From the NCBI RefSeq assembly GCF_030463565.1, contig NC_134656.1, positions 1,493,001 to 1,557,000 of the forward strand: a stretch of 64,000 nucleotides of DNA, read 5' to 3'. A program made the translations under genes and the position numbers. Positions 31,852 through 63,863 of the stretch are shown here, in pieces; positions within the stretch are counted from its first letter, which is position 1, and each line of letters opens with the position of its first letter. The DNA comes from Pelecanus crispus. Taxonomy: Eukaryota; Chordata; Aves; Pelecaniformes; Pelecanidae. The notes beneath the pieces are model-generated. The model saw nothing but the letters and a program-made list of their open reading frames with translations, had not been told where the DNA came from and did not search any database.

Positions 31852-33855
31852 TCATGCCTTCCCACGCTTGAAGAGGAAGATGAGGAGGCCCCCGAGGAGC
31901 CCCTTCTCCATCAGGATGCCAAGCCACAAGATGGGGCTGGACAGGAGGTGTGGACCTGTGGTGGGGACAGGGGACTTGAGTGGCCAGGGCTCAGGGACAG
32001 GTGGCCCCCAGCCGCCCACCACCCCAGGCACCCAGCAGCATTACCTGGCTGGGACCGGTCGCTCAGTCCCTCCCTGGCTGGGGCAGCAATCTGCAGCACG
32101 GCCTTCTCGACGACGGGACCCTGGGCATCGTGCATCATTTGGCAGGTGAACACGGACCCGTTCTTCTCCTCCGTCGCTCTGACCTCCACCAGGCTCCTCA
32201 CCCTGAACAAGCCCCGGGAGGTGTTCTCCAGCCGGGAGGTGTTCACCACCTTCATCTCCGTCCCGTTTTCCAGCCAGGCGACGGCCACGTCTCCCGGGTA
32301 AAACCCCTCCACGCGGCAGGTGAAGGTCACAGTCTTGTTCACCTCAACGGGGTTTGGTGGAGCAGCGACCACGCGGACCTTGGGGGCGACTGGGAAGAAA
32401 AGCAGCTCCTGGTGCCTGCGTCCCCCGGCTCCGCTGCCCGCGGGCTGCCCTGTCCCTGCCCCAGGACCCCCAGCCCCACGGGAGCCGGACGCCCCGAGCG
32501 CCGGTGCCCCCCCAGCCCTCACCTCGCAGGGCTTTGCCGAGCTCGTACGTCCCCCTCAGCGGGGCCGGCAGCGTGAGGTGCCGCACCTCGCAGGCGAGCT
32601 GCGAGCGGATGTCGTCCTCCTGCAGCCTCACCGTCACGGTGCTGGACATGTCGTAGGAGAATTTCGTCTGCCCGGAGGTGATCTGGGGCTGCTGAGCCCT
32701 GATCGGGATCCCGTCCTTGAGCCATTGCACGGCGATGTCTTCGGGGGAGAACCCTCCGGCCGTGCAGGTGAAAGACACCGATTGCCCCGGCCCCGCTCTG
32801 CCGTCGGGCCCGGACACAACCGGGGCGCTGGGTTTGGCTGCGGGGAGAAGCGTGGGGCCGTCAGACCGGGCTCTGCCACCCCCGCCCGGCCCCAGGGCTG
32901 CAGGGAGCGGGGTCTCCCGCGGGGGCACGGATGTGCCCGGGGACGGCCCACGGGATCCCGAGCCCCGAGCCCCTTCCCCGACCCCGCTCGCCCAGAGCAG
33001 AGCCCACCGGGACGGGCTGGGTCGGGACGTGCTGGGACGGGGGCTGCGCCCGGCGGGGCTGGTTCCCACCAGGAGCCCCACTCACCGTGCACGGACACCA
33101 CCGTGCCCTTTCCTCGCTGAAACACCGCCTCATCACTGATCCCCGATATCCTGAACTTCACGCAGTAATAGGTGCCGGCATCCTCGGGGCGAACATCGCT
33201 GATGCGGATGTTGAAATCCATGTCGGACCCATTCGCTACCCTCGTCACGCGGGGGAAGAAGCCCTTCTGCTCATAGATGGTCTCGTTCCCACTGCCCCAG
33301 CCCTTCAGCCACTTCACAGCACCAGCGGGACCTTCTCCAGACACGGTGCAGGTCAGGTTGAGCGTCTCCCCCGCTGTCACCGACACCTTGTCCTGGGGCT
33401 GGTGCAGCTCGAAGCCCCGGCTCGCCTGGGCCCCCGCACCTGGGCACAGCGACAGGAGGGCAGGGGGCTGACGAGGGGCTCCAGAGCTGGGGCACAGCAC
33501 GGGCCATCGCCAGAGCCCCGGCCCCGAGCCCGGAGCAGGGACACAGAGCCATCCCTGTCCCTCGCCCCCCTGGGGCAGCCGGCACCGCAGGGGACTGCGG
33601 GACGGGGAAGGCCCCCGGGATGTGATGGAGTAAAACAAACTCTTCGGCCGGGGATAGAAGCAAGGTAGAAGGGAGGCAGGGAGAGCAGAGCCCAGAGAGG
33701 CGCAGGCACAGGGAAGGATCGCCCTGCCAGCGGCGCGGGGGAGCGTGCCGTGGGGAAGGCGCTGGGGCCGCGTGGGGCCCCCACTCACCCGGGGCTCTCC
33801 GGAGCAGGAGCAGCATCAGGCAGGCAAGAGGCAGCGCCCGCGTCGCCGGAGCCAT
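31852..33855 (-). CDS. SIRPB1-like activating signal-regulatory protein (V-C1-C1, lysine in the membrane segment)
   Basis: A complete five-exon immune receptor of 394 residues. Exons: 33789-33855 (leader MAPATRALPLACLMLLLL), 33086-33439 (V-type Ig, with LTCT and DAGTYYC cysteines), 32523-32837 (first C1), 32045-32389 (second C1), 31852-31955 (membrane segment and end). All introns are phase 1 and the total is 1185 coding bases. There are several N-glycosylation sites (NETI, NGSD, NGTE, NTSR, NGSV). The last exon encodes a hydrophobic stretch of about residues 366-389 with E377-K378 inside it, then KRGKA and a stop. Such a short tail with a membrane lysine is how mammalian SIRPB1 binds DAP12/TYROBP, so an activating role is inferred. 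The ectodomain exons are almost identical to those of the SIRPA-like gene at 62463-63863. The gene is transcribed away from the single-V receptor at 35132. Confidence 0.9.
32045..33439 (-). repeat. inverted duplication, left arm (V-C1-C1 block)
   Basis: This block of three exons and two introns matches 62463-63863 in reverse orientation with very few differences. Over the compared coding sequence I see three residue changes in the V exon, none in the first C1, and one plus a changed end in the second C1. The introns are also nearly identical, with single-base changes and one-base length changes. Similarity stops at the V-exon acceptor on one side and a few bases past the second C1 exon on the other. 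Confidence 0.88.
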
Positions 33856-35131
33856 GGCGATGCCCACGTCCCGCTCCCCGACGGCTCAGGGCGGCTCGGC
33901 TCAGCGGGTGGCGGGCTCTCTCCTAGCAAAGGGGAAGGAAGAGGCTCGCTGCTGGCCAAGTTCCTCCAGGGACCACTTGCACAAGTCGCAGCCGGTTCCC
34001 ACCGTCTTCACACCATCTTGCGTCACGAGGCTGCTCCTCGCCGGTGGCATCAGTCTCGCTCTCCCTGCGCATTTGTGCCACGGCCACCGGCACCGGGCAG
34101 CCGGCCAGAGGGGCCCCGGATTGCCGGGGGGACACCCAGCCCTTGCCGGCAGGATCGGGGCAGGGGCCGGCGTCTCCGACGGGCCCGTGGCGCAGAGCTC
34201 GCCCAGGGCTTCGCCGCAGCCCACCTGCAGCCCACGCTCCGGGCCCGCTTGCCGAACCAGGGGGCTGAGCCGCTCCCCGGCCCCGTGCCCGGCGCAGCCC
34301 TCGGGGTCGGGGCAGAGCCGCAGACGCTTGGCCCTCGGGGGAAGCCCTTTGGGGATGAAGCCCGTCGGAGGTGAAGCCTTTTGGGGCTGAAATACTTCGG
34401 GGGTGAAGTCCTTCGGGGGTGAAGCCCTTTGGGGGTGAAGCCTTTCGGGGGTGAAGCCCGCCGGGGATGAAGCATCCGGGGATGAAGCCTGCCGGGATGA
34501 AGCCCGCCAGGGATGAAGTCCGCTGGGATGAAGCCCGCCGGGGATGAAGCCCGTTGGGATGAAGCCCTCCGAGGATGAAGCCCGCCGGGGGTGAAGCCCT
34601 CCGGGGGTGAAGCCCTCCGAGGATGAAGTATCTGGGGGTGAAGCCCTCCGGGGATGAAACCTGCCGGGGATGAAGTATCTGGGGGTGAAGCCCTCCGGGG
34701 ATGAAGCCCTTTGGGGATGAAGCCCTTTGGGGATGAAGCCCGCCGGGGATGAAGCCCGCCGGGGGTGAAGCCCTTTGGGGATGAAGCCCTTTGGGGATGA
34801 AGTATCTGGGGGTGAAGCCCTCCGGGGATGAAACCTGCCGGGGATGAAGCCCTTTGGGGATGAAGCCCTTTGGGGATGAAGCCCGCCGGGGGTGAAGCCC
34901 TTTGGGGATGAAGCCCGCCGGGGGTGAAGCCCGCCGGGGATGAAGCCCGCCGGGGATGAAGCCCGCCGGGGGTGAAGCCCTCCGGATCTCCCGTCGGCTC
35001 TGCCCGTGCCCCCCCCCGCCCCGGGGCAGGCACCACAAGCGTTAACAGCCCGCGGCCGCTCGCCTCCATTTCCTGTGCCGCTTCTCCTTTTCCTTCTCCG
35101 GGCGCCGGAGCCCAAACTTTGGGCAGCGCCC
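33856..35131. promoter_or_regulatory. shared upstream region of two divergent SIRP genes
   Basis: About 1.3 kb separates the start codons of the minus-strand SIRPB1-like gene and the plus-strand single-V receptor. It is GC-rich and CpG-rich, and its middle is a 16-bp minisatellite (34341-34985). No TATA box was evident at either end. A pyrimidine-rich run (CTTCTCCTTTTCCTTCTCC, near 35080-35098) lies 35-50 bases before the plus-strand ATG. Its complement is the purine-rich type bound by ETS factors such as PU.1, which is only suggestive. Confidence 0.5.
34341..34985. repeat. 16-bp minisatellite between divergent SIRP genes
   Basis: About 40 tandem copies of a 16-bp unit, GAAGCCCGCCGGGGAT, with variants GAAGCCCTTTGGGGAT, GAAGCCCTCCGGGGAT and GAAGTATCTGGGGGT. 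Because 16 is not a multiple of three, each reading frame on the minus strand cycles through three six-frame phases every 48 bases without meeting a stop. This produces long collagen-like open frames that are not real genes. Confidence 0.92.
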
Positions 35132-38100
35132 ATGGCTTGGCGCACGGCTGCGGCGGCTCAGCTCCTGCTCGGGCAGCTCAGCCTCCTCCCGCCGCGGCTC
35201 TCGGGTGAGTCCGGAGCGGGGGGCGGCGGCAGCCCCCCCGGCAGCTCTGCCGCTCCCCCGCCCCGCTGGCTGCGGCTGCCCCGGGGGGACGGCGGGGGAG
35301 AGGCCCGGCCGCCGCCGCAGATCGCTAAGGCCAGCGGGCCGGCAGAGGGGATCGCCGGACGGGGGGGCCTTCCTCCGCCGAGCACCTTTTTGGGCTGCGT
35401 GGGATGGCGGGGGCAAGGCGGGCCCCGGGGGTGTGCAGCGCCGAGCCCCGGGGGTGCAGCGCCGAGCCCCGGGGGTGCTGATCTGAGCCCCGGGGGTGCA
35501 GAGCCGAGCCCGGGGGTGCTGATCTGAGCGCCGGGGGTGCAGAGCCGAGCCCGGGGGTGCAGATCCGAGCCCCGGGGGTGCAGAGCCGAGCCCCGGGGGT
35601 GCAGATCCGAGCCCCGGGGGTGCAGATCTGAGCGCCGGGGGTGCAGAGCCGAGCCCCAGGGGTGCAGAGCCGAGCCCGGGGGTGCAGAGCCGAGCCCCGG
35701 GGGTGCAGAGCCCAGCCCCGGGGGTGCAGAGCCCAGCCCTGGGGGGGTGCAGCGCCGAGACCCGGGGGTGCAGCGCTGAGTCCCAGAGAGCGAAGCCCCA
35801 GGGTGTGCAGAACCGAGCCCCAGGGATGCAGAACCGAACCCCGGGGGGTGCAGAGCCGAGCCCCAGGGGTGCAGCGCCAAGCCCTGAGGTGTGCAGAACC
35901 GAGCCCCAGGGATGCAGAACCGATCCCCGGGGGGTGCAGAGCAGAGCCCCAGGGGTGCAGCGCCAAGCCCTGAGGTGTGCAGAACCGAGCCCCAGGGATG
36001 CAGAACCGAACCCCGGGGGGTGCAGAGCCGAGCCCCAGGGGTGCAGCGCCAAGCCCTGAGGTGTGCAGAACCGAGCCCCAGGGATGCAGAACCGATCCCC
36101 GGGGGGTGCAGAGCAGAGCCCCAGGGGTGCAGCGCCGAGCCCTGAGGTGTGCAGAACCGAGCCCCAGGGATGCAGAACCGATCCCCGGGGGGTGCAGAGC
36201 CGAGCCCCAGGGGTGCAGCACCAAGCCCTGAGGTGTGCAGAACCGAGCCCCAGGGATGCAGAACCGATCCCCGGGGGGTGCAGAGCCGAGCCGCGGGGCG
36301 TGCAGCGCCGAGCCCTGAGGTGTGCAGAACCGAGCCCCAGGGATGCAGAACCGAACCCCGGGGGGTGCAGAGCCGAGCCGCGGGGCGTGCAGCGCCGAGC
36401 CCTGAGGTGTGCAGAACCGAGCCCCAGGGATGCAGAACCGAACCCCGGGGGGTGCAGAGCCGAGCCCCAGGGGTGCAGCGCCGAGCCCTGAGGTGTGCAG
36501 AACCGAGCCCCAGGGATGCAGAACCGAACCCCGGGGGGTGCAGAGCCGAGCCCCAGGGGTGCAGCGCCGAGCCCTGAGGTGTGCAGAACCGAGCCCCAGG
36601 GATGCAGAACCGATCCCCGGGGGGTGCAGAGCCGAGCCCCAGGGGTGCAGCGCCGAGCCCTGAGGTGTGCAGAACCGAGCCCCAGGGATGCAGAACCGAT
36701 CCCCGGGGGGTGCAGAGCAGAGCCCCAGGGGTGCAGCGCCGAGCCCTGAGGTGTGCAGAACCGAGCCCCAGGGATGCAGAACCGAACCCCGGGGGGTGCA
36801 GAGCCGAGCCCCAGGGGTGCAGCGCCAAGCCCTGAGGTGTGCAGAACCGAGCCCCAGGGATGCAGAACCGATCCCCGGGGGGTGCAGAGCCGAGCCGCGG
36901 GGCGTGCAGCGCCGAGCCCTGAGGTGTGCAGAACCGAGCCCCAGGGATGCAGAACCGAACCCCGGGGGGTGCAGAGCAGAGCCCCAGGGGTGCAGCGCCG
37001 AGCCCTGAGGTGTGCAGAACCGAGCCCCAGGGATGCAGAACCGATCCCCGGGGGGTGCAGAGCCGAGCCGCGGGGCGTGCAGCGCCGAGCCCTGAGGTGT
37101 GCAGAACCGAGCCCCAGGGATGCAGAACCGAACCCCGGGGGATGCAGAGCAGAGCCCCAGGGGTGCAGCGCCAAGCCCTGAGGTGTGCAGAACCGAGCCC
37201 CAGGGATGCAGAACCGAACCCCAGGGGGTGCAGAGCCGAGCCCCAGGGGTGCAGCGCCAAGCCCTGAGGTGTGCAGAACCGAGCCCCAGGGATGCAGAAC
37301 CGATCCCCGGGGGGTGCAGAGCCGAGCCGCGGGGCGTGCAGTGCCGAGCCCTGGGTGTGGAATGTCGAGCCCCGGGGGGTGCAGAGCCGAGCTCCGCCAA
37401 GCCAGTGCTGAAGGTAGTGGGGGGCTTTGGGCAGGAGGGTTTTGGGGGCTGCGCTCGGCTCCGGGGCTGCACATCCCTGCTCAGAGCCAGCTCCTGGCCG
37501 CCTGCGCACAGTCCTGGGCTCTGAACCCCGCTTTCTCGCAGAGCCCCAGTAATCCTGGCTTGTGTTGTACAGAGCTGGGGCGTTAATGTTTAACAGCATT
37601 AGGGAGTTTTTCTTGCCAGGAATTCCCCTTGGCTCTCTCTGTACTTCTCTGGTCTGCGAGCACCCGCAGTGCCTCCTGTTATCAACACGACAGGGGCTGC
37701 GAATTTGTCCCTTGTTCATTTTGAACCTGGCTTCCCAGTGCCTGCGGTTTGTCTCTGCCACATCCAGGGATATTTCTCAGCCGCGCTGGCTGCAAACTTG
37801 GAGCGAGCAAGGGCTGCTCTGCCCGTGTGCTCGGAGTGAGTGGAGCAAGCCCTCGCCTCGCTCCGTCGCTCAGCCCCTGCCCTCCTGTCGCTGTGCCCAG
37901 GTGCGGGGGCCCAGGCGAGCCAGGACTTTGAGCTGCACCAGCCCCAGGACAAGGTGTCGGTGACAGTGGGGGAGACGCTCACCCTGACCTGCACCGCGCC
38001 CAGAGGCAGTCTCGCTGGTGCTGTGGAGTGGCTGAAGGGCTGGGGCGGTGGGAACGAGACCGTTTACGACCAGAAGGGCTCCTTCCCCCGCGTGACGAGG

Positions 38101-39409
38101 GTAGCGAATGGGTCCAACATGGACTTCAGCATCCGCATCAGCGATGTTCGCCCCGAGGATGCTGGCACCTATTACTGCGTGAAGTTCAAGAAATCGCTGG
38201 GCGGTGATGAGGTGTTTCAGCGAGGAAAGGGCACGGTGGTGTCCGTGCACGGTGAGTGCAGCCCAGTGGGACGCTGCTCCTGGGGACCCCATCCCCTGGC
38301 CCCCACCCTGCCCGTGGCGGGGTCCCGCGCTGCCCTGCACCCACCACCCTGTCCCTGCTCTGTCTTCTGTCTCCGCAGAGACAGCCCTGGTTCCCAGCGT
38401 AGTGGCTGCAGCTGTAGTGCTCTGCTTCCTCCTCGGCCTCTTCTTCGCCGTCTGCATGTACAGGAGGAGGCGCAGAGGCGAGGTGGAGAGCCAGCGCCTG
38501 GCCAGGCGAGCAGCCGTGGGCAGCTTCTCACCCGTCCCTCTGCGGTGCTGTGCAGGGACCCCCGGCACCCCGAGGTTTGTACCCACCACCTCTTCCTTCT
38601 GCACCCCGAGACGAGCGAATGGGCTTATCCACCTGCCTTATCCTGGTTTCCTCTCCCTCTGGAGCAGTAATTTTCCCCAGAACAGGTCCTTTACTCACAG
38701 GCACATCGCTGCGCTGCGTTGCTTCTCTCTGCGGTTCTGGGAGCGCGCGGTGGGGAGTGCCCAGCACCGGGGAGCTCCCTGCAGCCCCTCACCGTGGTGC
38801 CTGAGCCCAGTCCGGGCACGCAGACGGCACGTTGTCCCTCTCCTCTGCCTTCAGCGTGGGCATCGTGTGTGGCCATGTGCCGCAGAGCCCGGCTAAAATT
38901 CGGGAGGGGAATTGAGGAGGGCTGTGCTGGGTGGGGTGGGAAGGGGACCTGGCTTCCTTTAGCTCTAATGGCTGTTCTTCCCCCCAGCAGCGAAGTCCTG
39001 GACTCAGAGAGCTCACATCTGCCCAGCCAGGTAAGAGTGAGCCGTGAATATGAGGAAGAGCATCCCATGCCGATGTCCCGGCTTACAGGGACTCTGCAAG
39101 GCTCTGGAGCTGGGGTGGGCATTGGGGGAGCAGCAGCTGCCTGCATGCGGTCCCGGCACACTCCGCACCACGGCACGGGGCCGTCTGTGCAGTCGTGGCG
39201 CCGCTGGCTTGAACCTGCCATTAGGGTTATATTTGCAAGATTTTTCTTGTGACAGCATTCGCCGTTTGTGTGCACTTCTGCAGCAAAGCAGCAAGGAGGA
39301 CAACATCCACTACGCTGATCTCCAGCCCCTGCCCGCGTCCCCGGGGCACAGCAGGAGCCCCAGCGCAGCCTGCTCGGAGTACGCCAGCATCAGGGTAGCT
39401 GCCAAGTGA
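35132..39409 (+). CDS. SIRP-like inhibitory receptor with a single V domain and ITIM tail
   Basis: A five-exon model of 262 residues. Exons: 35132-35204 (leader MAWRTAAAAQLLLGQLSLLP), 37901-38251 (V-type Ig, [12 protein letters not shown] to DAGTYYC), 38379-38574 (membrane span and basic stop-transfer, LVPSVVAAAVVLCFLLGLFF then CMYRRRRRG), 38988-39030, and 39284-39409. The 789 coding bases close exactly in phase. The last exon carries NIHYADL (Y231) and CSEYASIRV (Y254). Both fit the ITIM consensus and resemble the tail motifs of mammalian SIRPA (TYADL and SEYASV), which recruit SHP-1 and SHP-2, so an inhibitory role is inferred. There is no C1 exon between the V and membrane exons. Intron 1 (2.7 kb) contains the 22-bp/86-bp minisatellite. 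The 3' end of exon 3 is the least certain point: a small extra intron in its second half is possible. Confidence 0.85.
35422..35800 (+). repeat. 22-bp minisatellite, irregular part
   Basis: Tandem 20-22-bp units on CCGGGGGTGCAGAGCCGAGC with variants ATCTGAG, ATCCGAG and GCCCAG, lying in intron 1 of the single-V receptor. It is the same family as 31246-31648, and both arrays are in the same orientation. Confidence 0.9.
35798..37395 (+). repeat. 86-bp higher-order repeat built of four ~22-bp units
   Basis: About 18 copies of an 86-bp block made of four diverged 20-23-bp units in fixed order: TGTGCAGAACCGAGCCCCAG, TGCAGAACCGAACCCCGG, TGCAGAGCCGAGCCCCAG and TGCAGCGCCAAGCCCTGAG. Blocks start at about 35805, 35891, 35977, 36063, 36149 and so on to 37271. 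A few are 87 bp. Variable sites (AACCCC or ATCCCC, CCCCAG or CGCGGG) are mixed among blocks, which indicates exchange within the array. Reading frames of 700-870 codons on the minus strand come from the lack of stops in the unit. Confidence 0.92.
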
Positions 39410-39841
39410 TGTGTGGCACCGCAGCCTGCAAGGCCAAAGAGCCCATTTCGGAGGAGGAAGCAGGAACAGTTCTGCAGGACGCAGTAAAGAAGTGGATCTG
39501 TTTGCATGGCACACCCCAGTCCAAGCTCGGCACGCCGCGCTCGGAGCTTGCAAAGCTCCCCTAATCCATTCCCGTCTCAGTGGCGGAGCCGGGCGAGGCT
39601 CAGGGCCCGACCTGCTGTGCCGGGCTCGACAGCAGCTCTCCCAGGACCCAGCAGCCACCTCAAACACAGGGTCAGGGCCACGAGGCTGAGCACCTCTGCC
39701 TTCTGCAAGCCGTTCGGTGCCAATTACAACAGGAGGACTTCGCGCACGCCTGTCTCCACCAGCACGGGCCACCACCGGCACTTTCCCAGCTCAGCAGGTC
39801 CATAATTTGTGTTAGATTTTCACTGCACCAAGCCCATCCTC

Positions 39842-39847
39842 ATTAAA
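39842..39847 (+). terminator. candidate polyadenylation signal of the single-V receptor
   Basis: An ATTAAA hexamer 433 bases past the stop at 39407-39409. No AATAAA was noticed nearer the stop codon. Confidence 0.35.
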
Positions 39848-40238
39848 GCCAGCAAACAGCCGTGCTGTCCAGTCCCGCTGTGTTCAGAGCAAGAGCGATA
39901 GTGCCGGTCCCACGGGGTCCTGGGAGACGCGTGGCCTCCGCAGCCCCGTGCCAGCTCACCCCGCGCCGCTGCCCAGCCCGTGCTGCCCGGCTCCCACCAA
40001 ACCCGCATCTTCCGACCGCGTGCGGGGCAGCTCTCGGGAACAGCCCTCGGTGCCGCTTTGCTGCAGCTCGTGGGCTGAGGCCCGGCACTCATCCGGCTTT
40101 CCCTGCCCTCCCGAAGGGGCCAGTGTTTGGGAATAGGGTTCATGATGCTGTGTTAAAACTGGGGCAGCTGGCACCAGCCAGCCCTTCCACCCCTTTTCCC
40201 TGATCTGTGCACAGCTCCTGTTCCAGCCCCAGGCAGTC

Positions 40239-40890
40239 CGTGCACATCTGCTCCATGCACATCCCCTGCTCCGTGCACACCTGCTCCATGCACATCCCCT
40301 GCTCCATGCACACTTGCTCCTTGCATATCCCCTGCTCCATGCACATCCCCTGCTCCGTGCACATCCCCTGCTCCATGCACATCTGCTCCATGCACACCTG
40401 CTCCTTGCATATCCCCTGCTCCGTGCACATCCCCTGCTCTGTGCACATCCCCTGCTCCATGCACACCTGCTCCTTGCACATGTCCTGCTCCTTGCACATG
40501 TCCTGCTCCATGCACATCTGCTCCATGCACACCTGCTCCATGCACATCCCCTGCTCCATGCACACCTGCTCCATGCACACCTGCTCCATGCACATCCCCT
40601 GCTCCATGCACACCTGCTCCATGCACATCTACTCCATGCACACCTGCTCCTTGCATATCCCCTGCTCCATGCACACCTGCTCCTTGCATATCCCCTGCTC
40701 CATGCACATCTGCTCCGTGCACATCTGCTCCATGCACACCTGCTCCTTGCATATCCCCTGCTCCATGCACATCTGCTCCGTGCACATCTGCTCCATGCAC
40801 ACCTGCTCCTTGCATATCCCCTGCTCCATGCACATCTGCTCCGTGCACATCCCCTGCTCCGTGCCCACGTGCTCAGTGCCCCACGTGCTC
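40239..40890. repeat. 15/18-bp minisatellite downstream of the single-V receptor
   Basis: About 40 units alternate between 15 bp (ACCTGCTCCATGCAC) and 18 bp (ATCCCCTGCTCCATGCAC), with variants TCCGTGCAC and TCCTTGCAT. Unit lengths are multiples of three, so both strands show long open frames (CSMHICSMHTCS-like on plus, MHGAGVHGAD-like on minus). These are shadows, not proteins. Confidence 0.92.
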
Positions 40891-43558
40891 CGAGGGGAGC
40901 AGGACGGTGGCTGAGGACGGAGCGTGGCGGTGGCAGGAAGCCGCGGAGTGCACGTTCCACGCCGGGCACCGCTGCAGCACCTGGGCGCACGCCGGCATGA
41001 CGTGCGCAGACGCACCCACCCGTGGCGGCAGGCGCTCCCATGGCACCGCGTGCCGCCACGAGCAAACACCATCCCTCATGGGCACGGGCTAAGGGCGAGA
41101 CATGCTTTTCAGGCAGAGGAAGCTGCTGTTGCTGCCACTGCTGCTGCCTGTAACCTTGAAAGCTGCTGCAGTTGCCAGTTTCCAACTTTTCTTTTTAATG
41201 TGAAAAAAGAGAAGTGAAACAAGACAGTGTGAAGTAGCAGCTCGTGTGTACCCAGGGGAGCCTCATCTGCCAGCAGAGATCATTTTTGGGAGAGAATTGT
41301 GATGGGGGAGAGGAGCCACTGCGGAAATTCATTTGCATGAGTGAATAAGCATCCCTCCCTTGCTCCAGCAGACATGCCCTGGGAACAGTTTTGGGTCATT
41401 TCTTTCTCAGGGACAGCTCTTTGGCACTCAGCACCCCGTGGGCACGGTGGCGGGTGGGGGGAGTTTGCAAGGGCAGGGGTCCATCACCGCTGCCCCCAGC
41501 ACCCGTCCCCAGCCTGGGCTCCTCTGCACCAACCCCAGCAGCAGCGAGGGGCCGTGGCGCGGGGGTGCCGGGGCGAAGCTTTCGGCGGTGCCAGGTCCCG
41601 AGCGGAGCCACGGCCGCACCGGGCAGCGGCCCATTTCCCAGCCGAGGCGGCGGCTGTTCCAAGCAGGACACACGGGTTGCCCAGCCTCTGCGCGGGGAGG
41701 ACACCGAAGCTCATGGAAAGCTCACGTCAGGTTTGTGAGCAGGAATATGTAAAATATGCGGGTGAGACTGAAACCGGGGATAGACCTCGTAGACAAGGGG
41801 AAACGAAATTCAGGGGGATTTAGGGCTTTTTAAGCACTGGGCTGCATCAGAAGGGGGGAAATACGGTTTGAATCAAGCGTATGCAAAGCGGCGAGCGAGC
41901 AGAGCACCGTGGAGCGCCCTGTACCTAGGAAAGGGCCCAGGTCTGCGGCTTACTGCCCAGGGGAGGGATTTGGGGGTTATTATAGGAAAATCCTTTAAGC
42001 CACCAGCCCGGGGTGTGCTGGCAGTGAAAGCACAAAGAAGCGCCCGAGTGTGGACACGAGGTAGGAGCGCGTCGGGGAGCACCTCGCTCGGGGGGCAGCA
42101 CCGGGCGACGCTGGGGTCGGGGATTTACCGCTCGTCTGCAGCGGTTTCCTGGCGCTGCTGGCTGTCACGTCCCGCTGAGTCACCCACTGGGTGCTCGAGT
42201 GAGAAACGCGGGCGCTTGCGCTGAGTCGAGAGCCGCAGCGGCTGGGGGGAGTGCAGGGCGATGCTGGGGCCGGTACCTGCCGCACTCCTCCTGCCCGCAG
42301 CCGGGGCCAAGCAAAGGCGGCTTCGCTGCGGTGCGGAGCAGTGGTGGCGGCTGGACGGGCGGTGGGGAGAGGCTCGGCGTCCCAGCCGGAGAGGGGACAC
42401 GCCAGCTCCGGCCAGGATTTGGGCTGTGTCCCAGCGTCGGGCCCCGTGCATGGACACCCCGGGGCAGTGCCGTGCCGGGGCAGGGGTGCAGCAGCCGCAG
42501 CGAGAAGCTCCGGGTGCATGGGTGGTGTGGGGGGCTTAGCCGGGCTTTTCCTCTGCGTGGTGTGTGAGCCCGCTGCTGGGACCTCGTGGGATGGCAAAGC
42601 CAAGCAAAAGGGGAGAGGCTGAGCTGGGCTGTGCCGTGGTGGGAGTCTGCGCAGACCCCCGCCCTGGGGAGAGGCAGAAAGCAGGAGCCAGGGAAGAGCC
42701 ACAGGATGCTCCGGGGATGCTCCGGCATCTGCTCCGCTCCTGGCCCCGGGAGGTGGGAAACGGCTCCTGGAGGTGCCAAGGCGAGAGGGCTGGCAGGGTG
42801 GTGGTGCGTGCCGTGCCGTGCCGTGCCGTGCCGTGCCGTGTCGTGCCGCGCCGTGCCAGGGAGCCAATGTGGGAGGCACGGGCTGTGCCAAGAGCCAGCA
42901 GGGAGCATGAGCCTCCGATGGAAAACATGGAATAAGAGAGCAATTAGTCCGGAGAGCGTCACTGATGGATGAGGCTGGCCCCAGCAGCGAGGCGAGGGGG
43001 AGCAATGATTTCATTAACGCCAAGGAGGAGCGTGGTCTCAGCTGGCGCATGGGGCTGGCTGGAGCAGGGGGCTGTGGGCGTCTCCCTGGTGTCCTGGGGG
43101 ACAGGAGAGGGCTGGCAGCGCTCGCGGGGGAGCGGGACAAAGCTGAGCTTGTGCTGGAGCCAGGGCTGAGTGAGGAGAAAAGGGGAGAGACGGGGATAAA
43201 CGCCTCACGCCCTGCCCCGGGGTGCTCCAGCTTGGCGGCGAGGAGCAGAGACCCCCCCAGACTGGCAGTGCCTCTCACAGGGACGGGTGCCCAGGGGCCA
43301 TCGCGTCTCCCGGGAGCCAGCATTGCTCCAGCGTGTCCCCTCCAGTGTCTGCCATGGCAGCGGCTCCAGCCCAGGCCCCGGTTTGCAGCTGTCTCTGTGC
43401 AAGATGCCCTTGCGCTCCTGTTCTGTCCCCATCCCTGTCCCCATCCCTGTCCTTGCCACTGCGAGACCGTGGTGGCCACAAGCCCATCCCCAGGGAGAGG
43501 CAGGCTGGTCCATTTGCACATCGGCGTCAGCCAAACAGCCACGGGTCCAAGAGCATCC
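40891..43558. other. GC-rich intergenic DNA, no gene recognised
   Basis: Very GC-rich and low in stops, so long open frames appear in many phases (for example on minus from 43785 to 41995), but none shows a known domain or splice logic. It contains a pentanucleotide microsatellite at 42808-42857. The first few hundred bases after 41100 are AT-richer and unremarkable. Confidence 0.5.
42808..42857 (+). repeat. (GTGCC)n microsatellite
   Basis: About ten copies of the five-base unit GTGCC, with two variant copies (GTGTC and GCGCC) near the end. Confidence 0.9.
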
Positions 43559-44056: not shown

Positions 44057-44190
44057 AAAACTGTGACATGCTTTACGCTCTTTCTGATTTATTTCGCGTC
44101 TTACTTATTGAATCTTATTCCCCGGTTTCACAGTTATTGCGGATTTTTATTAAAGGGGATAAACAGGTCTGGGATTTGGGGTTGTCATAG
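44057..44190. promoter_or_regulatory. AT-rich island, possible conserved element
   Basis: An abrupt AT-rich patch in GC-rich surroundings, with TTATTGAATCTTATTC and GGGGATAAACAGG. It has the look of a conserved noncoding element, but nothing in one sequence can prove conservation. Confidence 0.25.
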
Positions 44191-54049: not shown

Positions 54050-54830
54050 CCCCAGCTGCTTCCTCCTGCCCGCCCTGGGTGCGCCCTGCCCGCCCCGGGG
54101 AGCCGGGCACCGCTGCCACCCCCGGGGCTCCTCGCAGCCCTGCCCGGGGATCCCGGCACCGGCCCGGGGGTGGGTGCGGGGTCTCCCCCAGCCCACCTTA
54201 AGGCAGCAGCGCGGCGGGGGTGGGGGGGGTGACTTCGCAACAGCAAAGTTTGCTCCGGGCCGGGCGGTTGCTGGCTTCGCCCCCGGGGAAGCGACCTGCA
54301 AGGGGGGCTGCTGGGGAAAGGCGGGGGGGGTCGTCTGCGGTGCGGGGCCGGCCCCATCCCGCCCGGTGCCAAGGCAACGGAGGCGGGGAGGCGGGCGCGG
54401 CTCCGCTCGGCACCGGGGCATGCGCCCGCCCGGGGCCCCGCCGCGGCGGCCCGGTCAGCGGAGCCCGAGCCCCGGGGCCCGGCCAGGACGGTGCCCGCGG
54501 GCGGCGGCGGGGCCCTGCGTGTGCGCTGCCCGCCCGCAGCCGGGGGGAGGCGGGAGCCCAGCCCTCCTTCCTCATTTTGGGGCTGAGAAGAGCAAGCGAT
54601 TTCCTTCTCCAGCTGCAATTCTGCTTTTTTTTTTTTTTTTTTTCCCCTCCTCTTATTTTTTTTAAAAAAAAAAAAAAAGCAAGCAGCAAAGCCGGAGCCG
54701 CGCTCTGAAGCCACTCTGATTTCTGCTTCCCAGAAAGAGCCGACGATGGAGCCGCTTTCCCGCAGCCCCGGCCGCGCTGCCTGGCTGCTGAGCTGCCTGG
54801 CGCTGCTCTCCCTGCACGGCTGCCCAGGTA
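54050..54830 (+). promoter_or_regulatory. CpG-island promoter of the SIRPA-like gene
   Basis: A strong CpG island (densest at about 54140-54560) immediately upstream of the leader exon. It is followed by T-rich and A-rich runs (54627-54678) within 130 bases of the start codon, likely in the 5' UTR. No TATA box is seen in the island. Confidence 0.65.
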
Positions 54831-57800
54831 AGCCACGGCTCCGACCTGCCGCCTTCTCCTGCCACCCTCCTCTTGTGCTTTGCTTTTATTTATTTTTTTT
54901 TTTTTTCCCTTTTCCCCCTTCCATCCTCTTCTCTCTGCTGCCCCTCCTCTACGCGACATGATGCTGTCTCGCTGCGCACGTTTGGTTTGACCTTTCCAGG
55001 AGATGACCTAGAGCGCGGCGATGGCAGAGGGGAGCGGGGCGAGCTCCCGCAGGGCCCTCGCTCGGCTGCTCCTCCAGGAGCAAACTTCCAGGCAGACATT
55101 CCCCTTTCCAGCCAGGCGAGGGAATTAGGCAGGGACGTGAAGAGGCATGTTGTTTCCACCCGTTCGCTGGCACCCACTGCCAGCTATGCGAGAGGCAAAT
55201 CTCTGCAAGCAGCCGAAATTCCCACTCGGAGGCTGCCCGGCGATGGGGAGGATGGTAGAGCGGGCGAGGGGAGCCTGCGGTGAGGGCAGCCTGCCTCCTC
55301 CACTGGGAACTCGTTTTTCTTGCTCCCTCCTGCTTTACCCCCGACTGTATGCAGTTCTTGCTGCTCTACCCAACTGTTGAGCACCAAAGCAGTGGGATCG
55401 ACCCGTCCTCCCAGGCACCCTGTGCCACCCAGCCCTGCTGCGAGCGCCGGCCGTGGCTCACATGGGGCTCCTGCTGCTGGCCCCCCAGGTGCCCCAGCCC
55501 TCCCCGGGCTTGTGGCTCCGCCGCTTCCTTATGTAAAAGCCTGGGGATGCAGCATGAGAAGGGATGATGGGAGCGTGCGCTGCTCCCTGCCTGTTTCTCT
55601 TCCCTCGCTAGCAGCGGGAAGTTTCTCGCCCTACCAGGAACGAAGCCCTGTGGTGGGTGCTGCTTTCAAGGATGTTTTGTTTCGGTGCTCTTCGTCTCGG
55701 GTGATACTGCTAAGGAATCGCTCTCCTTCCTGCCCGGCGCTGCCTGCGCCTCTGGGGAAGGACGGGGCTTTTTGTACAAACCTCTTGGGGCAGTAGCAAT
55801 GCACGTTCAGGAGCATCTTGCTGCTGAGCTTTTTGCCTGCTCTGTCCAAATTTCACACCTTCTAGCCGGATCCCACTGCAAATAGCCCAGGCCAGGCTCC
55901 TCACGTGGGCATGGGTGAAACGCCGTCCTGTGGGGGGGAAAACCACATTCTCTCAGGCCCATCAGAAACGTTTACTGTCAAAGCTTTGCTTGGGCAGAGG
56001 GTTGAGTGCAAACTTGAGCAGAAAGCAAATGCTTTTAGCACAACACTCCTTGCTTTGAGTTGCCCGATCACAACTGAGAAGAGTTGGCCCCAAGCTGAAA
56101 ACTCCCGGCTGTGGAAAGCCAAGGAGGCTTTGGCGGCGAGTGCAGCTTCTCAGTGAGCCGCTGCGAATTCCTGCCACGAAAGAATGGCTTGAGCAAAGCT
56201 CTTGAGTTTAATTAAATGTGGCCTTGGAGTAAGAACCCCATTTTTCCAAGCCAGCCATGGGAAAAGAACCATCCTGGGGCAGCAAGCCCTGGGTCACGAG
56301 GTGGTTTGCATCCCTGATTTCAGATGCGAGCATGCAGATTTTTTTTTTTTTTTTTTTTCCCCCCCCATGCTGGGGAGACCCTGCGGTGAACCCTCCTGGG
56401 CCATGGCCCAAACTAAGCCTGAACTCTAGAAGAGCTGGCCCAGGCTCCTGCTGCCAGAGGGCAGCTGCTCCGACAGCACTTCTGCAGAAGCAAAGGGGAA
56501 ACGGGAGGGTCCTGCAGGAGATCTTCCTGTAGGGCAAAGAGGAGCGAGATTCTGGGAAGCCAAACTGCAAGGCCCTGTTGCAAAATCTGTGCCGTGCAGA
56601 ACCCTTCCCTGCAGGCGTTTTTTGACACAGGGTTTCAGCTGCGCTTCCCGGAGCCTCCTCTAAAAAGGAAATATGTTTGGTTGTGGGGCTCTGGCTTTCA
56701 AGCTGAATTTCTGCTAATGTTGTAGGAGGGAAGCTTGCAAATGATGGCTGCGTGTGATCCAAGGCTTCCTCTGATGTCACGTATGTAAAATATAGCCTTT
56801 ACTATAACCGGCCCCGAGCTGCTCCGGGATCTGCATAGCTCTCGACAGCTACCCCCGGCTCTCTCATCTTCCCCTGAACTGCAGATTCCAGGCCCTTTTT
56901 ATAGGCAGCACCTGTTAGTTTCCCCCCCCAGGCAGCCCCGCTCCAGGTGAAATTCCTGCACGATTATTTTGGGGCTTCTCTTGCCCATCGGCCCGTTCCT
57001 TCAGCGAGTGACTGTGGGGCTCCGGATGCCGGTGACCAGCTGCACGTTGCTTCTGGAGCATGCAGCCCTCCTCTCGCCATCCCGGAGCTCCTTACCCAGC
57101 TCCTTCAGAAGGGAGAAAAAAAAAAAAAAAAAAAAAAAATCTATTTTTATCGGGAAGCATCCAAGCAGCCTCTCCTGAATTAAACCCCGTCCTCTTGCAA
57201 TCTGTTTGGTATCAAATACTTCAAAAGGTGGAATACAGAAAAAAAAAAAAAAAAGTGTCACTGAGACAGAAAACTAGCACTGCAGTGGGAGAGCCAGGAA
57301 TTATTTTGCTCTCAAATTAAATGAAATAACGAGAGGGAGGCTCTGCCAGACCAGGCGCAGCACGACACCCCTGCTCGTGCCTCTTCTCCAGGCTGGAAGT
57401 GCTCTGGGTCCGCGTTGCGAGGGTGCTCCCACCTACGTAGGAGCTGTCAGGTGGTGATTTTTCAGGGCTCTGAAACCCTTTGCTAATTCTGGAGTGTAGG
57501 ACAGAGCAGATTCCAGGGTCGGAGCACCTAAACTCCCCTTGATCTTGGTGGTGAAAGGATTGCGCTCTGACTCTAGGTGGTTTGAGATCGAAGCCTGTGG
57601 TCGGGTGGCACTGTGAACGTGCCCGGGGGGAAGCAGGTTTGCACTGACCCGGCGCTCGCCGTGAGAAATCGCGGCGTGTCCCGCGTGTTTGCAGCACGGA
57701 GAGCCCCTGCATCCCGCTCCCGGTGCGCGAGCACGTCGCGTGAGCGTACGGGGCTCGCGCACGCCGCTGCCAGATACCTGCGGGGAGGGGGCTCGGATGG

Positions 57801-60800
57801 GCTCCCGGCCCCGCTGCTCCTTGGGGCAAGCGCCCAGAAAGGGGAAGGAGGAGAGACATCATCTGCTGGGTGCAAGGAGAAGCCGTATTCAGGGGGAAGG
57901 GAGGAAGGGAGCTGCAGTGGAAACTTTGCATTTTCTAACTTGCATATTCTGGGGTTTTCTACCAACTTCCCCTTTGTGTTTTCTCGCCGCGGGGGGGTTG
58001 GGGCATCGCTCTGCGTGCCGCTGCCGGAGTTCGAAGGCGTTTCTGAGCACGCGGTGGGTCAGGTTGGTCCCGGCGTAGGGCTGTTGGGTGCAGGGTGGGC
58101 AGGTGGAGGAGTCGGGCGGCCTGATGGGGACGTGCGCTCCTCGGCCGGGAGGCGTGAGCCAGTCTAGTTCAGGCGGCGTGGAGTTAACGCGGCCATATCG
58201 TGGCTGAAGCTCACGTATAACAGATCTCCTGCAAACCCCAAACGGGATGATCTGGAGAGCGCCGGCCAAGTGGCGCTGTGTGTGAAAGTCTCTAAAGCGG
58301 CACGGTGGCTCACAACAGACCACATGGAAAAATACCCCAAACCCACATTTTAGTCCTATCTGAGAGCCACGCAGTGTTTTCTGCGGTGACCCGAGAGACG
58401 GAGCGCTGCCAGCGAAGCCTTCTGGCGGGCGGCACTGGTGGCAGCACGAAGCCCTTTGTTCCCCGGCTGCTCTCGGGGAGCAGCAGCACCGTCGGAAAAG
58501 CCCCGCTGCTGCAGCAGCAGCAGCACCTCCGGTAGCGTGTCGCCGGACAACAGCGCACGCCCTGCCTGCAAATCCCTCGGTGCGGGGATGTCGTGGTTCA
58601 GCCCCAGGCAGCGGCTCAGCACTACGCGGCCGCTCGCTCGCTGCCCCTGCCCCGAAGGGATGGGGGAGAGAATCGGAGGAGTGAGAGTGAGAAACACTCC
58701 TGGGGTGAGATAAGAACAGTTTAATAATTGAAAGAAAGTAAAATAGTAATGATAATAGTAACAGTATAATAATGATAATATCCAAAGCAAGTGATGCCCA
58801 ATGCAATTGCTCACCACCCGCCGACCGATGCCCAGCCAGTTCCCGAGCAGCGATCACTGCTCCCCGGCCAACCCCCCCAGTTTCTATACCGAGCATGACG
58901 TTACGTGGTATGGAATGGCCCTTGGGGCAGTTTGCATCAACTATTCTGGCTGTGCCCCCTCCCAGTTTCTTGTGCCCCTGGCAGAGCATGGGAAGGTGAA
59001 AAGTCCTTGACTGGCATAAGCAGTACTTAGCAACAACTAAAACATCGGTGTGTTATCAACATTCTTCTCCTACTGAATCCAAAACACAGCACTGTGCCTG
59101 CTACTAGGAAGAAAATTAACTCTATCCCAGCCGAAACCAGGACAGGGGAGCAGGCAGTGTGCTCGCACGCCGCTGCCCGGCGAGGAGGTGATGCGGGCTC
59201 GGTGTACGAGGTGCGCAGAGTGTCTGCAGCCCGGCTGTAAATGCGGGCTCTCGGAGAGGCAGCCGTGCTGCCTGCAAAGGTGAATCCCCGTGACCGGGAG
59301 GGCAGGAGCCTTGTGCCGAGGCTGTGGTGAGCTACAGCCCAGCCACGCTCAGTTTAACTGCCCGGTGCTTTTGTGGACATTGCTGTGAGACCCCATCGCC
59401 GCAACCGAGAGATGTGCTTTGGGGTTGAGCGATGCCCGTGCTGCTCGCCCCGGCCGCGCTTCGGTGTTGGGGTCAGCTCTGGGACCCCGAAACAGGCGCT
59501 TCCCCCGGCTCTGTCCCCTCCGGCATGGCTCGTGCCTCGTGGGGAGATGGGCAGATGGTGAGAGGGAGGATGAAGAGGGAGCGCTGGGCTCGCTGCAGGC
59601 TGGGCTCGGATGTGCGGGGTGGTGCAGGCAGCTCTCCCTGGCGCGGGGGATCCTTGAGGCGACGTGGGGATGTCACCGCCCTGCAAAAATCTCTTTTACG
59701 CGGGATCGCAGAGGGGAGCCGTGAGCCACATCCTCCTCCCGGGGTGCAGAGCCCCTGCGGTGGGGCGGGGGCCCTGGTGCCCGGCCCCCCGCTTCCCACG
59801 GCCCGTGCTGCGTGGCGGTGCCACCCGCTAACGAGCGGTGAGGCAACGCGGGTTCTGCTTGCCCAACTTGGCGGAGCGAGCAACTAGCGACGCGGCCACC
59901 GCGGGCGTGCGAAGGGGCCGGGGAGGGCTGTGCGGTGGGTGGCTGGGCGTGCCGGTCCCTGTCCCCGGAGCAGCCCGGTCCCCTGTGTCACATCCCCGTG
60001 TCCCGCAAGAGGCAGATGATGAGAGGCGGGTGATGCTTCGGTGCCGTCAGACTTCCTCTACGCATTTCTCAACCGTCCCTTGCGAAAGGTCCGGGAGCAG
60101 CAGGCGATGGAGAAGCTCGGGAGATGCCGCAGCGGCGGAGCCGGCTGTGTGTGCCCTGTGCCACCACCGTGCTCTGCACATGGGGTGCGTCAGCACCCAC
60201 CGAGGGCAGGGGCTGCGCTCCGGGGCGCTCCCCCGGATTTGGGTGTCACCCAGGAAACATGGGCTCACCTTGCAGAAGCGCAGACCGCTGCTGCTCGGGC
60301 AGAAGACCGAGGCTCAGCCTGAACGACTTGGATGTGACGCAAACCAGGTTTCCGTCCTGCCATGCTTGTCTTTTGGGACAAACTTGTCTCGGTGTTGAGT
60401 GCGGCTCTGCGTTAGCCTTGACGTGGCTTTGAAGGGAAACACCAAGGGCTGAAGCTTTCGGCTGCGAGCGCCAGCTGTGCTGGGGATGCAGCAGACTGAT
60501 GCCCTGGGCAGAAAGCCTTTAACTTGAGGAATCTGGAGAAACCGTGCTCCTGGTAACTCTGATAGAATCATGGAATCGTTTAGGTTGGAAAAGCCCTTTA
60601 AGATCATCCAGTCCAACCATTAACCTACACTACCAAGCCCACGCTAAGCCAATCAAGGGTAGACCAGACTGAACCATGTCCCCAAGTGCCACCTCTACCC
60701 GTTTTTTGAACGCTTCCAGGGATCGTGACTCCCCCACCTCTCTGGGCAGCCTGTTCCAATGCTTGACCACCCTTTCCGTAAAGAAATTTTTCCTAATTTC

Positions 60801-63800
60801 CAACCTAAACCTCCCCTGGCGCAGCTTGAGCCCATTTCCTCTCATCCTAATCATTGAGATCGAGTAATTGCGCAGGCAGTGAGAACATCTGTGGGTATGT
60901 CAAATACTGCTGGAAGTCAGAAGGGATTAACAGCTGCCAAAAATCCTCTCTGGGCTCCGTGGGAGCCAGCGGTGGCCTGGAGGGGTCAGAGAAGCTCATC
61001 CGACAGCGGGTCCTCCTGGGAGCATCCAGCCAAGCACTTTGTCCCACCCTGGGGATGGCTGCGGGGGTACCAAGGGCAGTCTCGTTGCTGCCCTGGGTTT
61101 TTCTGGTGCGAAAGATGTGGGGTGCAGCTGCAGCCCTCCAGCCAACAACTTGGGGCCGCGTGCTCCCAAGGCCGCTCAGCTGCAGCAGGAGTTACCTGCT
61201 CAAACACCACGGGCTCTGCGTGGCTGCCACAGCAGTTCTGCGTGCCGCTTGCCAGCTCTGGGAGCGCAGCGCTCGGCAGCACCGGGCCCCTGTTATCGGC
61301 AGGAGGATTTAAGAGGTTCTCCCACCTCTCTCCTGCATCGCTTAAAAATGGTCCTTTAAGCAATGACCTGGATTGAAATCTCATTCAGTTCGGTTGCGAT
61401 AGCTATATTGGGCATGGCAAGCATTGCCGAAATTAACCCCTCGAGGAGCCGTGTAGGCTACGGGGCGGCTGTCTCTGCTGCGTTTTGAGGCAGCGGGGAG
61501 CAGCGGCATCGCCAATTCCCGCAGGGCGGCTGTCTCTGCTGCTCCGGCCATTTTTAGGCAGCGGGGAGCAGCGGCATCGCCGATTCCCGCAGGGCTGAGC
61601 CGGCCAGGTCCTGGCACATCACGCGTGTGCGGCAGCGAGATCGGAACCCTGGTTCCTGCCAGCTCCGGCTGCAGATCCACCCAAGGTGGATTTCGTTATT
61701 GCCTGCCCACCGGGAGAGTGGAGCCCCGGTGATTTTTTTCCTGGAGACCTCGGGAGTCGCTCCCTGCCTGACCGTGCGTGCGGGAAGGTGTGCCGGCACC
61801 CATGGGTGCGTAGGTGAGGGGGTGCTTGGGACGGCAGCTTTCTGTTTGCGTGGCAGGGTGCGACAGGGTCGGCTGGATTAGGGAGCCTTGTTATTGGGAT
61901 GCTTTGAAGGGGACTGCTCTCCTCTGTCGGCGACAAGCAGGAACGGCGTCTGCCTGGCTGGCACCGGCTTTGGCTAATGGCTGAGCTCCGCTGGAGCGAA
62001 TCGGGGCTTGGATTCAATGCGGAAATGGGAGCGATTCAATGCAGAAAACATGGTATTGCATCTGCAGCTGTGAGGGGAGCTTGCTTTTTTGGAGTGCCTT
62101 CTATTTTGTGGCCTTGTTTTCTCCTGACTGACAAAGCCAAGCGGCCACGGGAGGCAGCATGCCGGCAGGCGCGGGCAGCTGGGATTTGCTCGATGTTTTA
62201 GCTGTACAGAGCATGACGTGCGGTCGTGTAGCAAAGCTCTGGCCGGCTCCGCTGCCGAGACCTGCAGGCAGAGGTCTGTGACCACGGGCTCTCCCCCGGG
62301 CTCCCTGGGGCTGGCACAGGGAGCCAGGTAACCGTGGTGCAGCTAAAGCGTGGCCGCGGTGCCTGCGAAGCGGAGCTGAGCGCTCAGCCTGTCCCGAGGG
62401 CAGGCGGGGAGCCGGGGCCGGGGGTCAGATGCCAAATGAGACTCGGTCTGCTTTTTCCCCAGGTGCGGGGGCCCAGGCGAGCCGGGGCTTCGAGCTGCAC
62501 CAGCCCCAGGACAAGGTGTCGGTGACAGCGGGGGAGACGCTCAACCTGACCTGCACCGTGTCTGGAGAAGGTCCCGCTGGTGCTGTGAAGTGGCTGAAGG
62601 GCTGGGGCAGTGGGAACGAGACCATCTATGAGCAGAAGGGCTCCTTCCCCCGCGTGACGAGGGTAGCGAATGGGTCCGACATGGATTTCAACATCCGCAT
62701 CAGCGATGTTCGCCCCGAGGATGCCGGCACCTATTACTGCGTGAAGTTCAGGAAATCGGGGATCAGTGATGAGGCGGTGTTTCAGCAAGGAAAGGGCACG
62801 GTGGTGTCCGTGCACGGTGAGTGGGGCTCCTGGTGGGAACCAGCCCCGCCGGGCGCAGCCCCCGTCCCAGCCCGTCCCGACCCAGCCCGTCCCGGTGGGC
62901 TCTGCTCTGGGCGAGCGGGGTCGGGAAAGGGGCTCGGGGCTCGGGATCCCGTGGGCCGTCCCCCGGGCACATCCGTGCCCCCGCGGGAGACCCCGCTCCC
63001 TGCAGCCCTGGGGCCGGGCGGGGGTGGCAGAGCCCGGTCTGACGGCCCCACGCTTCTCCCCGCAGCCAAACCCAGCGCCCCGGTTGTGTCCGGGCCCGAC
63101 GGCAGAGCGGGGCCGGGGCAATCGGTGTCTTTCACCTGCACGGCCGGAGGGTTCTCCCCCGAAGACATCGCCGTGCAATGGCTCAAGGACGGGATCCCGA
63201 TCAGGGCTCAGCAGCCCCAGATCACCTCCGGGCAGACGAAATTCTCCTACGACATGTCCAGCACCGTGACGGTGAGGCTGCAGGAGGACGACATCCGCTC
63301 GCAGCTCGCCTGCGAGGTGCGGCACCTCACGCTGCCGGCCCCGCTGAGGGGGACGTACGAGCTCGGCAAAGCCCTGCGAGGTGAGGGCTGGGGGGCACCG
63401 GCGCTCGGGGCGTCCGGCTCCCGTGGGGCTGGGGGTCCTGGGGCAGGGACAGGGCAGCCCGCGGGCAGCGGAGCCGGGGGACGCAGGCACCAGGAGCTGC
63501 TTTTCTTCCCAGTCGCCCCCAAGGTCCGCGTGGTCGCTGCTCCACCAAACCCCGTTGAGGTGAACAAGACTGTGACCTTCACCTGCCGCGTGGAGGGGTT
63601 TTACCCGGGAGACGTGGCCGTCGCCTGGCTGGAAAACGGGACGGAGATGAAGGTGGTGAACACCTCCCGGCTGGAGAACACCTCCCGGGGCTTGTTCAGG
63701 GTGAGGAGCCTGGTGGAGGTCAGAGCGACGGAGGAGAAGAACGGGTCCGTGTTCACCTGCCAAGTGATGCACGATGCCCAGGGTCCCGTCGTCGAGAAGG

Positions 63801-63863
63801 CCGTGCTGCAGATCGCTGCCCCAGCCAGGGAGGGACTGAGCGACCGGTCCCAGCCTGATAACG
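54746..63863 (+). CDS. SIRPA: SIRPA-like signal-regulatory protein (V-C1-C1; 3' exons beyond the window)
   Basis: Four plus-strand exons: 54746-54827 (leader [20 protein letters not shown], starting MEP like mammalian SIRPA), 62463-62816 (V-type Ig), 63066-63380 (first C1) and 63513-63863 (second C1). All junctions are phase 1. The linkage of the leader to the V exon across a 7.6-kb intron is inferred from phase, strand, leader quality and lack of any nearer leader. SIRPA on myeloid cells and neurons binds CD47 through its V domain and restrains phagocytosis. Cysteines LTCT/YYC, FTCT/LACEV and FTCR/FTCQV mark the three Ig folds. Membrane and ITIM exons are not in the window, so the inhibitory identity rests on synteny (NSFL1C, SIRPB-like, then outward-facing SIRPA, as in human) and on the leader. 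The ectodomain is nearly identical to the receptor at 31852-33855. Confidence 0.8.
58589..59144. mobile_element. solo LTR (same family as 3989-4538) in intron 1 of the SIRPA-like gene
   Basis: A 556-bp LTR from TGTCGTGGTTCAGCCCC to CCAGGACA, with a 5-bp target duplication GGGGA at 58584-58588 and 59145-59149. It has no internal region, so it is a solo LTR fossil. It is highly similar to the nested LTR at 3989-4538, in the same orientation. Confidence 0.9.
60564..60858 (-). mobile_element. CR1 LINE 3' end, ordinary single terminus
   Basis: The complement of a CR1 3' end. The plus strand starts TAGAATCATGGAATCGTTTA, runs through CCACCTCTCTGGGCAGCCTG and stops near CATCCTAATCATTGAGAT. It has a single terminus, with none of the spacer seen in the copies at 14-21 kb. 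Confidence 0.9.
61464..61592. repeat. two-copy tandem duplication (61 and 68 bp)
   Basis: Units 61464-61524 and 61525-61592 share GGCGGCTGTCTCTGCTG at the start and CATCGCC(A/G)ATTCCCGCAG at the end. They differ by a short insertion in the middle of the second. It lies in intron 1 of the SIRPA-like gene. Confidence 0.8.
62463..63863 (+). repeat. inverted duplication, right arm (V-C1-C1 block)
   Basis: The counterpart of 32045-33439. Similarity begins exactly at the V-exon acceptor: the preceding intron here (CTTTTTCCCCAG) differs from the other two SIRP genes, which share CTGTCGCTGTGCCCAG. At the far end the second C1 exon uses a different donor (AACG|GTGCGT here, CCAG|GTAATG in the other gene). 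Confidence 0.88.

Follow-up and report, generated by a model that had tools for sequence, protein, structure and literature searches.

Near-identical ectodomain blocks in inverted SIRP genes of Pelecanus crispus and the probable role of recurrent gene conversion in bird paired receptors

A stretch of 64,000 nucleotides from Pelecanus crispus (assembly GCF_030463565.1, contig NC_134656.1, positions 1,493,001 to 1,557,000 of the forward strand), here called the window, contains three genes of the signal-regulatory protein (SIRP) family beside NSFL1C. Gene A lies on the minus strand, and genes B and C lie on the plus strand, with C placed between A and B. NSFL1C (p47) is recognized by a minus-strand peptide adjoining gene A (E value of 1.5e-31), and human SIRP genes adjoin NSFL1C as well. 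Genes A and B show the domain order of the family, one V-set domain followed by two C1-set domains, and gene C shows it in part, with the V-set domain only. The introns of the three genes all begin with GT and end with AG, and the reading frame is continuous across the exon junctions.

Gene A spans positions 33855 to 31852 of the window (minus strand) and encodes a leader, the V, C1, and C1 domains, and a transmembrane segment. Its spliced model is identical in 394 of 394 residues to the NCBI protein "signal-regulatory protein beta-1-like [Pelecanus crispus]" (P0001), a match that includes exon 1 (33789 to 33855) with the signal peptide MAPATRALPLACLMLLLLRRAPG. The V-set exon (33086 to 33439), at which the block shared with gene B starts, is placed by alignment, gene model, and the Pfam V-set family PF07686, and the two C1-set exons (32523 to 32837 and 32045 to 32389) are placed by gene model and domain search. 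The best PDB match of gene A is SIRPα (2wng, E value of 2.2e-72), and the mammalian SIRP structure 4i2x also matches (E value of 1.4e-71). In the gene model, the transmembrane exon (31852 to 31955) carries a Glu-Lys pair and a short tail with stop, and it contains no immunoreceptor tyrosine-based inhibitory motif (ITIM). The protein ends in ...LWLGILMEKGLLGGLLIFLFKRGKA and shows the charged transmembrane residue and short tail expected of an activating member. By its sequence, gene A is an activating-type SIRP, as the initial annotation had held. Because of the transmembrane lysine, the protein probably signals through an adaptor with an immunoreceptor tyrosine-based activation motif (ITAM), following a general rule given in the accessible part of PMC4788293.

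Gene B begins at position 54746 on the plus strand with its leader, followed by a first intron of 7.6 kilobases and the V, C1, and C1 exons (62463 to 63863). The remaining transmembrane and tail exons must fall beyond the window edge. Exon 1 (54746 to 54827, donor gtaagc) encodes a signal peptide of the bird SIRPA type and fits the gene model; it was located by an ungapped BLOSUM scan, after short exact peptides had missed this leader and a profile search for it had given nothing usable. The V-set exon (62463 to 62816) and the two C1-set exons (63066 to 63380 and 63513 to 63863) are placed by gene model and domain search. Its leader indicates that gene B is the orthologue of bird SIRPA, which has a tail with ITIMs, and the inhibitory role that the initial annotation had called putative would follow from this orthology. 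Most proteins with a leader of the bird SIRPA type give three or four tyrosine-motif hits, with none in a few truncated models (P0058, P0179, and P0186).

Genes A and B lie in opposite orientation, 30 kilobases apart, and share a block of ∼1,398 bases that covers the V-C1-C1 exons together with both intervening introns (copy A, 32047 to 33444, minus strand; copy B, 62458 to 63855, plus strand). BLASTN gives a single match of 1,411 columns with 99.1% identity (32035 to 33444 on the minus strand against 62458 to 63867 on the plus strand). Base-by-base alignment shows 99.5% identity by substitutions within the block, with seven substitutions (33259, 33148, 33115, 33030, 32976, 32138, and 32088) and two 1-base indels. 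The copies differ at 5 of 1,012 exonic and 2 of 380 intronic aligned bases, and the introns are therefore as similar as the exons. Four of the exonic substitutions change an amino acid and one is silent, numbers too small to judge selection. In 50-base steps from 62457 to 63856, 48 to 50 of 50 positions match. On the left, the match begins within the splice acceptor, 5 bases before the V exon, and on the right it breaks off within the final codons of the second C1 exon, where gene A reads CCAG before the donor gtaatg and gene B reads CCTGATAACG before gtgcgt. Beyond these edges, similarity is at the level of chance, since the observed local score was reached by 58 of 200 shuffles for the upstream flank (300 bases) and by 43 of 200 for the downstream flank (135 bases). 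The 38 to 42 matches in the last 50-base steps (63857 to 64000) are, according to the shuffles, end effects of the global alignment. These results bear out the earlier description of near-identical, inverted ectodomain blocks with introns as similar as exons, sharp borders at the V acceptor and just past the second C1 exon, and diverged leaders, first introns, and 3' parts.

For comparison with other species, relatives were taken from three protein searches as the best 120 of 668, 818, and 952 matches, and the comparison outside the pelican concerns predicted proteins. Nineteen pairs of A and B were hand-picked from the matches listed, pelican included, 18 from birds and 1 from a turtle. Eighteen pairs come from one species each; the Haliaeetus pair combines A of H. 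leucocephalus with B of H. albicilla, which also provides gene C. The A models of Anas and Chrysemys place two V domains ahead of the C1 domains, and the V nearer to the C1 domains was used; second A models of Pluvialis and Porphyrio were excluded from the pair counts. In a maximum-likelihood tree built on 323 columns of the V, C1, and C1 domains, A and B of every one of the 19 pairs come out as sisters, with support of 100/97 or better in 16 pairs and lower values in Mergus (100/95), Anas (99/96), and Aythya (94/93). A single clade of all A ectodomains is rejected by the approximately unbiased test (p-AU of 0.0002). With four added pairs (Theristicus, Hirundo, Pezoporus, and Anas platyrhynchos), A and B are sisters in 23 of 23, the two Anas species being weakly supported in this tree (64/86 and 61/62). 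The A and B of the Pezoporus pair come from two species, and a Charadrius pair was dropped for an A model lacking a full V domain.

The leaders group by gene instead. The 16 A leaders compared form a single clade, as do the 16 B leaders (SH-like approximate likelihood ratio of 93, with 0 of 500 shuffles as low) in a tree of only 28 columns, from which Numenius, Pluvialis, and Anas were left out as their A models have no clear signal peptide. Tails as well as leaders are type specific in the compared birds and the turtle. The median identity within the 19 pairs is 44% for the leader, 94% for V, 97% for the first C1 domain, and 96% for the second, compared to 54 to 59%, 61 to 62%, 61 to 62%, and 57%, respectively, between orthologues. 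By identity, the partner is closer than any orthologue in the set in 17 of 19 pairs for V, in 18 of 19 for each C1 domain, and in 0 of 19 for the leader. The matched stretch differs between species: Pluvialis shows 75% identity in V, 100% in the first C1 domain, and 99% in the second, and Phalacrocorax shows 94%, 97%, and 81%. This species-specific extent fits variable conversion tracts and not the duplication of a whole gene.

The reading that we favor, with a probability of roughly 0.86, is that A and B are an ancient pair whose V-C1-C1 block has been homogenized repeatedly by interlocus gene conversion. An old pair with recurrent conversion is indicated because leaders and tails are type specific, yet the ectodomains group by species or genus, and the sharp edges of the pelican block fit gene conversion as well. 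The block would be copied between the two inverted genes, and copying would halt where homology ends, at the diverged first intron upstream and the diverged 3' part downstream. In this way, the ligand-binding half would stay matched while the leader, the promoter, and the signaling parts would stay distinct. The benefit most likely is that the activating copy would continue to resemble closely an inhibitory receptor that changes fast. In the pelican, the most recent event would date back on the order of one to two million years for ∼0.5% divergence at an assumed neutral rate. Since the two turtle genes carry tails of the A type and the B type and are each other's closest relatives in the tree, the A/B split most likely predates birds, and conversion has most likely acted in the turtle line too, although one turtle is thin evidence. 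The initial annotation had proposed recent conversion or duplication in this bird lineage; conversion fits the sharp edges, whereas duplication and a special place of the pelican lineage are not supported, given the grouping in 19 of 19 and 23 of 23 pairs and the type-specific leaders and tails.

Several points weigh against this reading. For V, 2 of the 19 pairs have an orthologue in the set to which identity is at least as high as within the pair, and for each C1 domain 1 of the 19 pairs does. The tract edges outside the pelican are deduced from predicted proteins, and the tail of pelican gene B lies outside the window, so that its presumed ITIMs depend on orthology. The pairs were chosen by hand among the best 120 matches listed, and others may remain unused.

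Among the alternatives, a recent duplication in the pelican lineage, by which a second, inverted copy of the block was inserted, survives best and is still quite unlikely. A fresh insertion would also give ∼0.5% divergence and sharp edges, but its target would have to be the precise gap that separates a B-type leader with its acceptor from a SIRPA 3' part. Other birds already possess A and B with leaders and tails of the same types, which weighs against this as a full account. In the gannet Morus bassanus, a single model (P0122) runs from gene C into gene B, and the two genes seem to be neighbors in this species too. A somewhat less probable account is birth and death, with a separate duplication in each species and selection adding or retaining leaders and tails. 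Ectodomains would then group by species as well, but ∼19 separate duplications would be needed, each ending at the same exon borders, with the A leaders and the B leaders nonetheless in one clade each. Less probable again is an assembly artefact in which a single ectodomain block was written twice. The view at the DNA level is that of the window's assembly alone, and no P. crispus B protein is among the matches listed, points that leave room for such an error. Against it stand the nine differences inside the block, the unique flanks on both sides, the intact splice sites and frames, and the 18 further pairs in which A and B proteins exist, with the two proteins listed for a longest contig of equal length in 17 of them (the exception being the two-species Haliaeetus pair). 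Selection for binding of the same ligand, keeping the proteins alike without exchange of DNA, is the least probable account: it finds no specific support, it is effectively refuted in the pelican by introns as identical as exons, and the V orthologues, with only 61 to 62% identity between species, show a surface that is not conserved.

Homogenization by gene conversion may also reach the third gene. Gene C (35132 to 39409, plus strand) consists of a leader, a V domain, a transmembrane exon, and a tail, and has no C1 exons. Exon 1 (35132 to 35204) encodes the signal peptide MAWRTAAAAQLLLGQLSLLPPRLSG, placed by gene model and of a leader type that recurs in other birds. The V-set exon (37901 to 38251; BLASTN, gene model, and domain search) has a DNA identity of ∼91% with both the A and the B V exon. 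It is directly followed by the transmembrane exon (38379 to 38574), with which a partial P. crispus protein (P0199) agrees, and the gene model continues with a tail exon (38988 to 39030) and a last exon (39284 to 39409) with two ITIM-type motifs (IHYADL and SEYASI) and the stop. The match between A and C extends 27 bases (33445 to 33471) upstream beyond the A/B block, bases that B does not have. Orthologues of gene C occur in many bird orders among the matches listed. They are named inconsistently, as SIRPB1-like, SIRPB2-like, SIRPG-like, or PTPN substrate 1-like (SIRPA), an example of how names based on the ectodomain can confuse bird SIRP genes. In seven of the nine species having all three genes, the V domain of gene C falls with those of A and B from that species or genus, and the tree leaves it without a settled place in the other two, Numenius and Morus. 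In these counts, Falco is represented by gene C of F. rusticolus and by A and B of F. peregrinus, and P0286 of Anas acuta, entered as C in the tree, was set aside in the C count after an A-type tail was found. Two further proteins, P0037 (Bubo) and P0044 (Spheniscus), join a gene C leader to an ectodomain and tail of the SIRPA type and are either mixed gene models or products of real splicing from C into B.

The broader reading, which we hold to be slightly better than an even bet on these sequences, is that the V-C1-C1 block of bird SIRPs, probably since the ancestor shared with turtles, is a module rewritten repeatedly by conversion, with its V domain also shared with the single-V ITIM gene C and the activating copy kept in step with the inhibitory one. 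The V domain of the inhibitory receptor shows a median identity of 62% between sampled species versus 94% within a pair. If this is true, such tracking, maintained across the whole bird radiation, would follow the prediction of the decoy ("counterbalance") view of paired receptors. In the accessible parts of PMC3664923 and PMC5413580, activating partners are proposed as decoys for pathogens that target the inhibitory member.

The initial annotation had suggested that the two receptors, if real, would bind the same ligand and signal in opposite ways, a candidate property only. Three of the seven pelican substitutions alter residues of the V domain (A/B: Phe/Ser, Ile/Lys, and Arg/Gln). Gene C agrees with B at two of these sites (Ser and Lys) and with A at one (Arg), a pattern that favors neither direction of conversion in the pelican. 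The Ile/Lys site aligns with Lys96 of human SIRPα, which the accessible part of PMC10304963 describes as a hot spot for human CD47 in simulations. SIRPβ is unable to interact with CD47 according to the portion of PMC3533184 available; the available passages of PMC5413580 are inconsistent, listing SIRPβ among the CD47 partners in one place and describing SIRPβ1 as without CD47 binding in the discussion. In the column of human Gln52, the 19 pairs show a departure from the consensus in A of four species and in B of none. The idea that the activating gene has generally lost CD47-contact residues was considered and rejected, as the trend vanished in a wider typed set. This set was drawn from 318 database proteins, of which 41 were untypable, 12 with several V domains were dropped, and 2 B proteins had no V match; pelican B and C were added. 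Among its single-V proteins, Gln is found at the Gln52 column in 39 of 53 A, 72 of 95 B, and 100 of 117 C, and Lys or Arg at the Lys96 column in 49 of 53 A, 92 of 95 B, and 116 of 117 C. Bird A proteins of this typed single-V set thus show no general loss of hot-spot residues, the hot spots being those simulated for human CD47.

Mammalian SIRPA and SIRPB1 resemble the pelican genes A and B in their V-C1-C1 ectodomain and in their position beside NSFL1C. The sauropsid A tail reads LLSSPGLWLGILLEKGLL..., and unlike mammalian SIRPA/SIRPB1, the bird set includes a third gene, the single-V, two-ITIM gene C. In 2006, Viertlboeck reported on the SIRP, TREM, and CD300L families of the chicken, a study that, by its title, is said to describe chicken SIRPs. 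Mammalian SIRPs comprise an inhibitory ITIM member and an activating member with a charged transmembrane segment (PMC3533184), an arrangement that genes B and A would probably share. The accessible text of PMC5701461 describes a similar case in primate SIGLEC11 and SIGLEC16, inhibitory and activating partners with conversion over the ligand-binding exon in every primate examined. That system differs in belonging to another receptor family, in being described for primates only, and in having glycan binding measured, whereas the present case concerns sequences of birds and one turtle. Extracellular similarity kept by gene conversion in several lineages is also described for primate CD300A and CD300C in the accessible part of PMC12447643; in that family, several lineages have a defective activating partner or have lost it, whereas the bird pairs were chosen with both genes present. 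No paper joining SIRPA, SIRPB1, and "gene conversion" was found in a search that left most subscription literature outside, and priority is not claimed. As far as this literature goes, bird SIRPs would be a further case of paired receptors matched by conversion, of unusual breadth. In the literature surveyed, the question whether activating partners are maintained as look-alikes of the inhibitory ones, and at what speed, has been studied mainly in mammals. Birds offer many natural replicates of one locus in which type-specific leaders and tails anchor orthology, and these replicates make the tracking rate, the tract borders, and any escape at the ligand face directly measurable.

Some A-type models of other birds contain additional domains. 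Two V domains are predicted in the duck proteins P0005, P0014, P0027, and P0286 (Anas and Aythya), the last of which has no C1 domains. In P0121 and P0123 (Theristicus and Hirundo), the whole V-C1-C1 unit is predicted twice, representing either tandem A genes or fused models.

The window also contains several repeats. Related GC-rich minisatellites lie on both sides of gene A, at 31250 to 31650 and at 35422 to 37396, the larger of which falls within intron 1 of gene C and has an 86-base period with ∼22 copies. A 16-base tandem repeat of ∼41 copies (34341 to 34985) occupies the space between the divergent starts of A and C, and a tandem array with a 33/48-base period (40237 to 40874) lies downstream of gene C. 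Two further repeated pairs are found at 14797 to 15218 and 18903 to 19328 (91% identity) and at 3989 to 4550 and 58589 to 59154 (82% identity).

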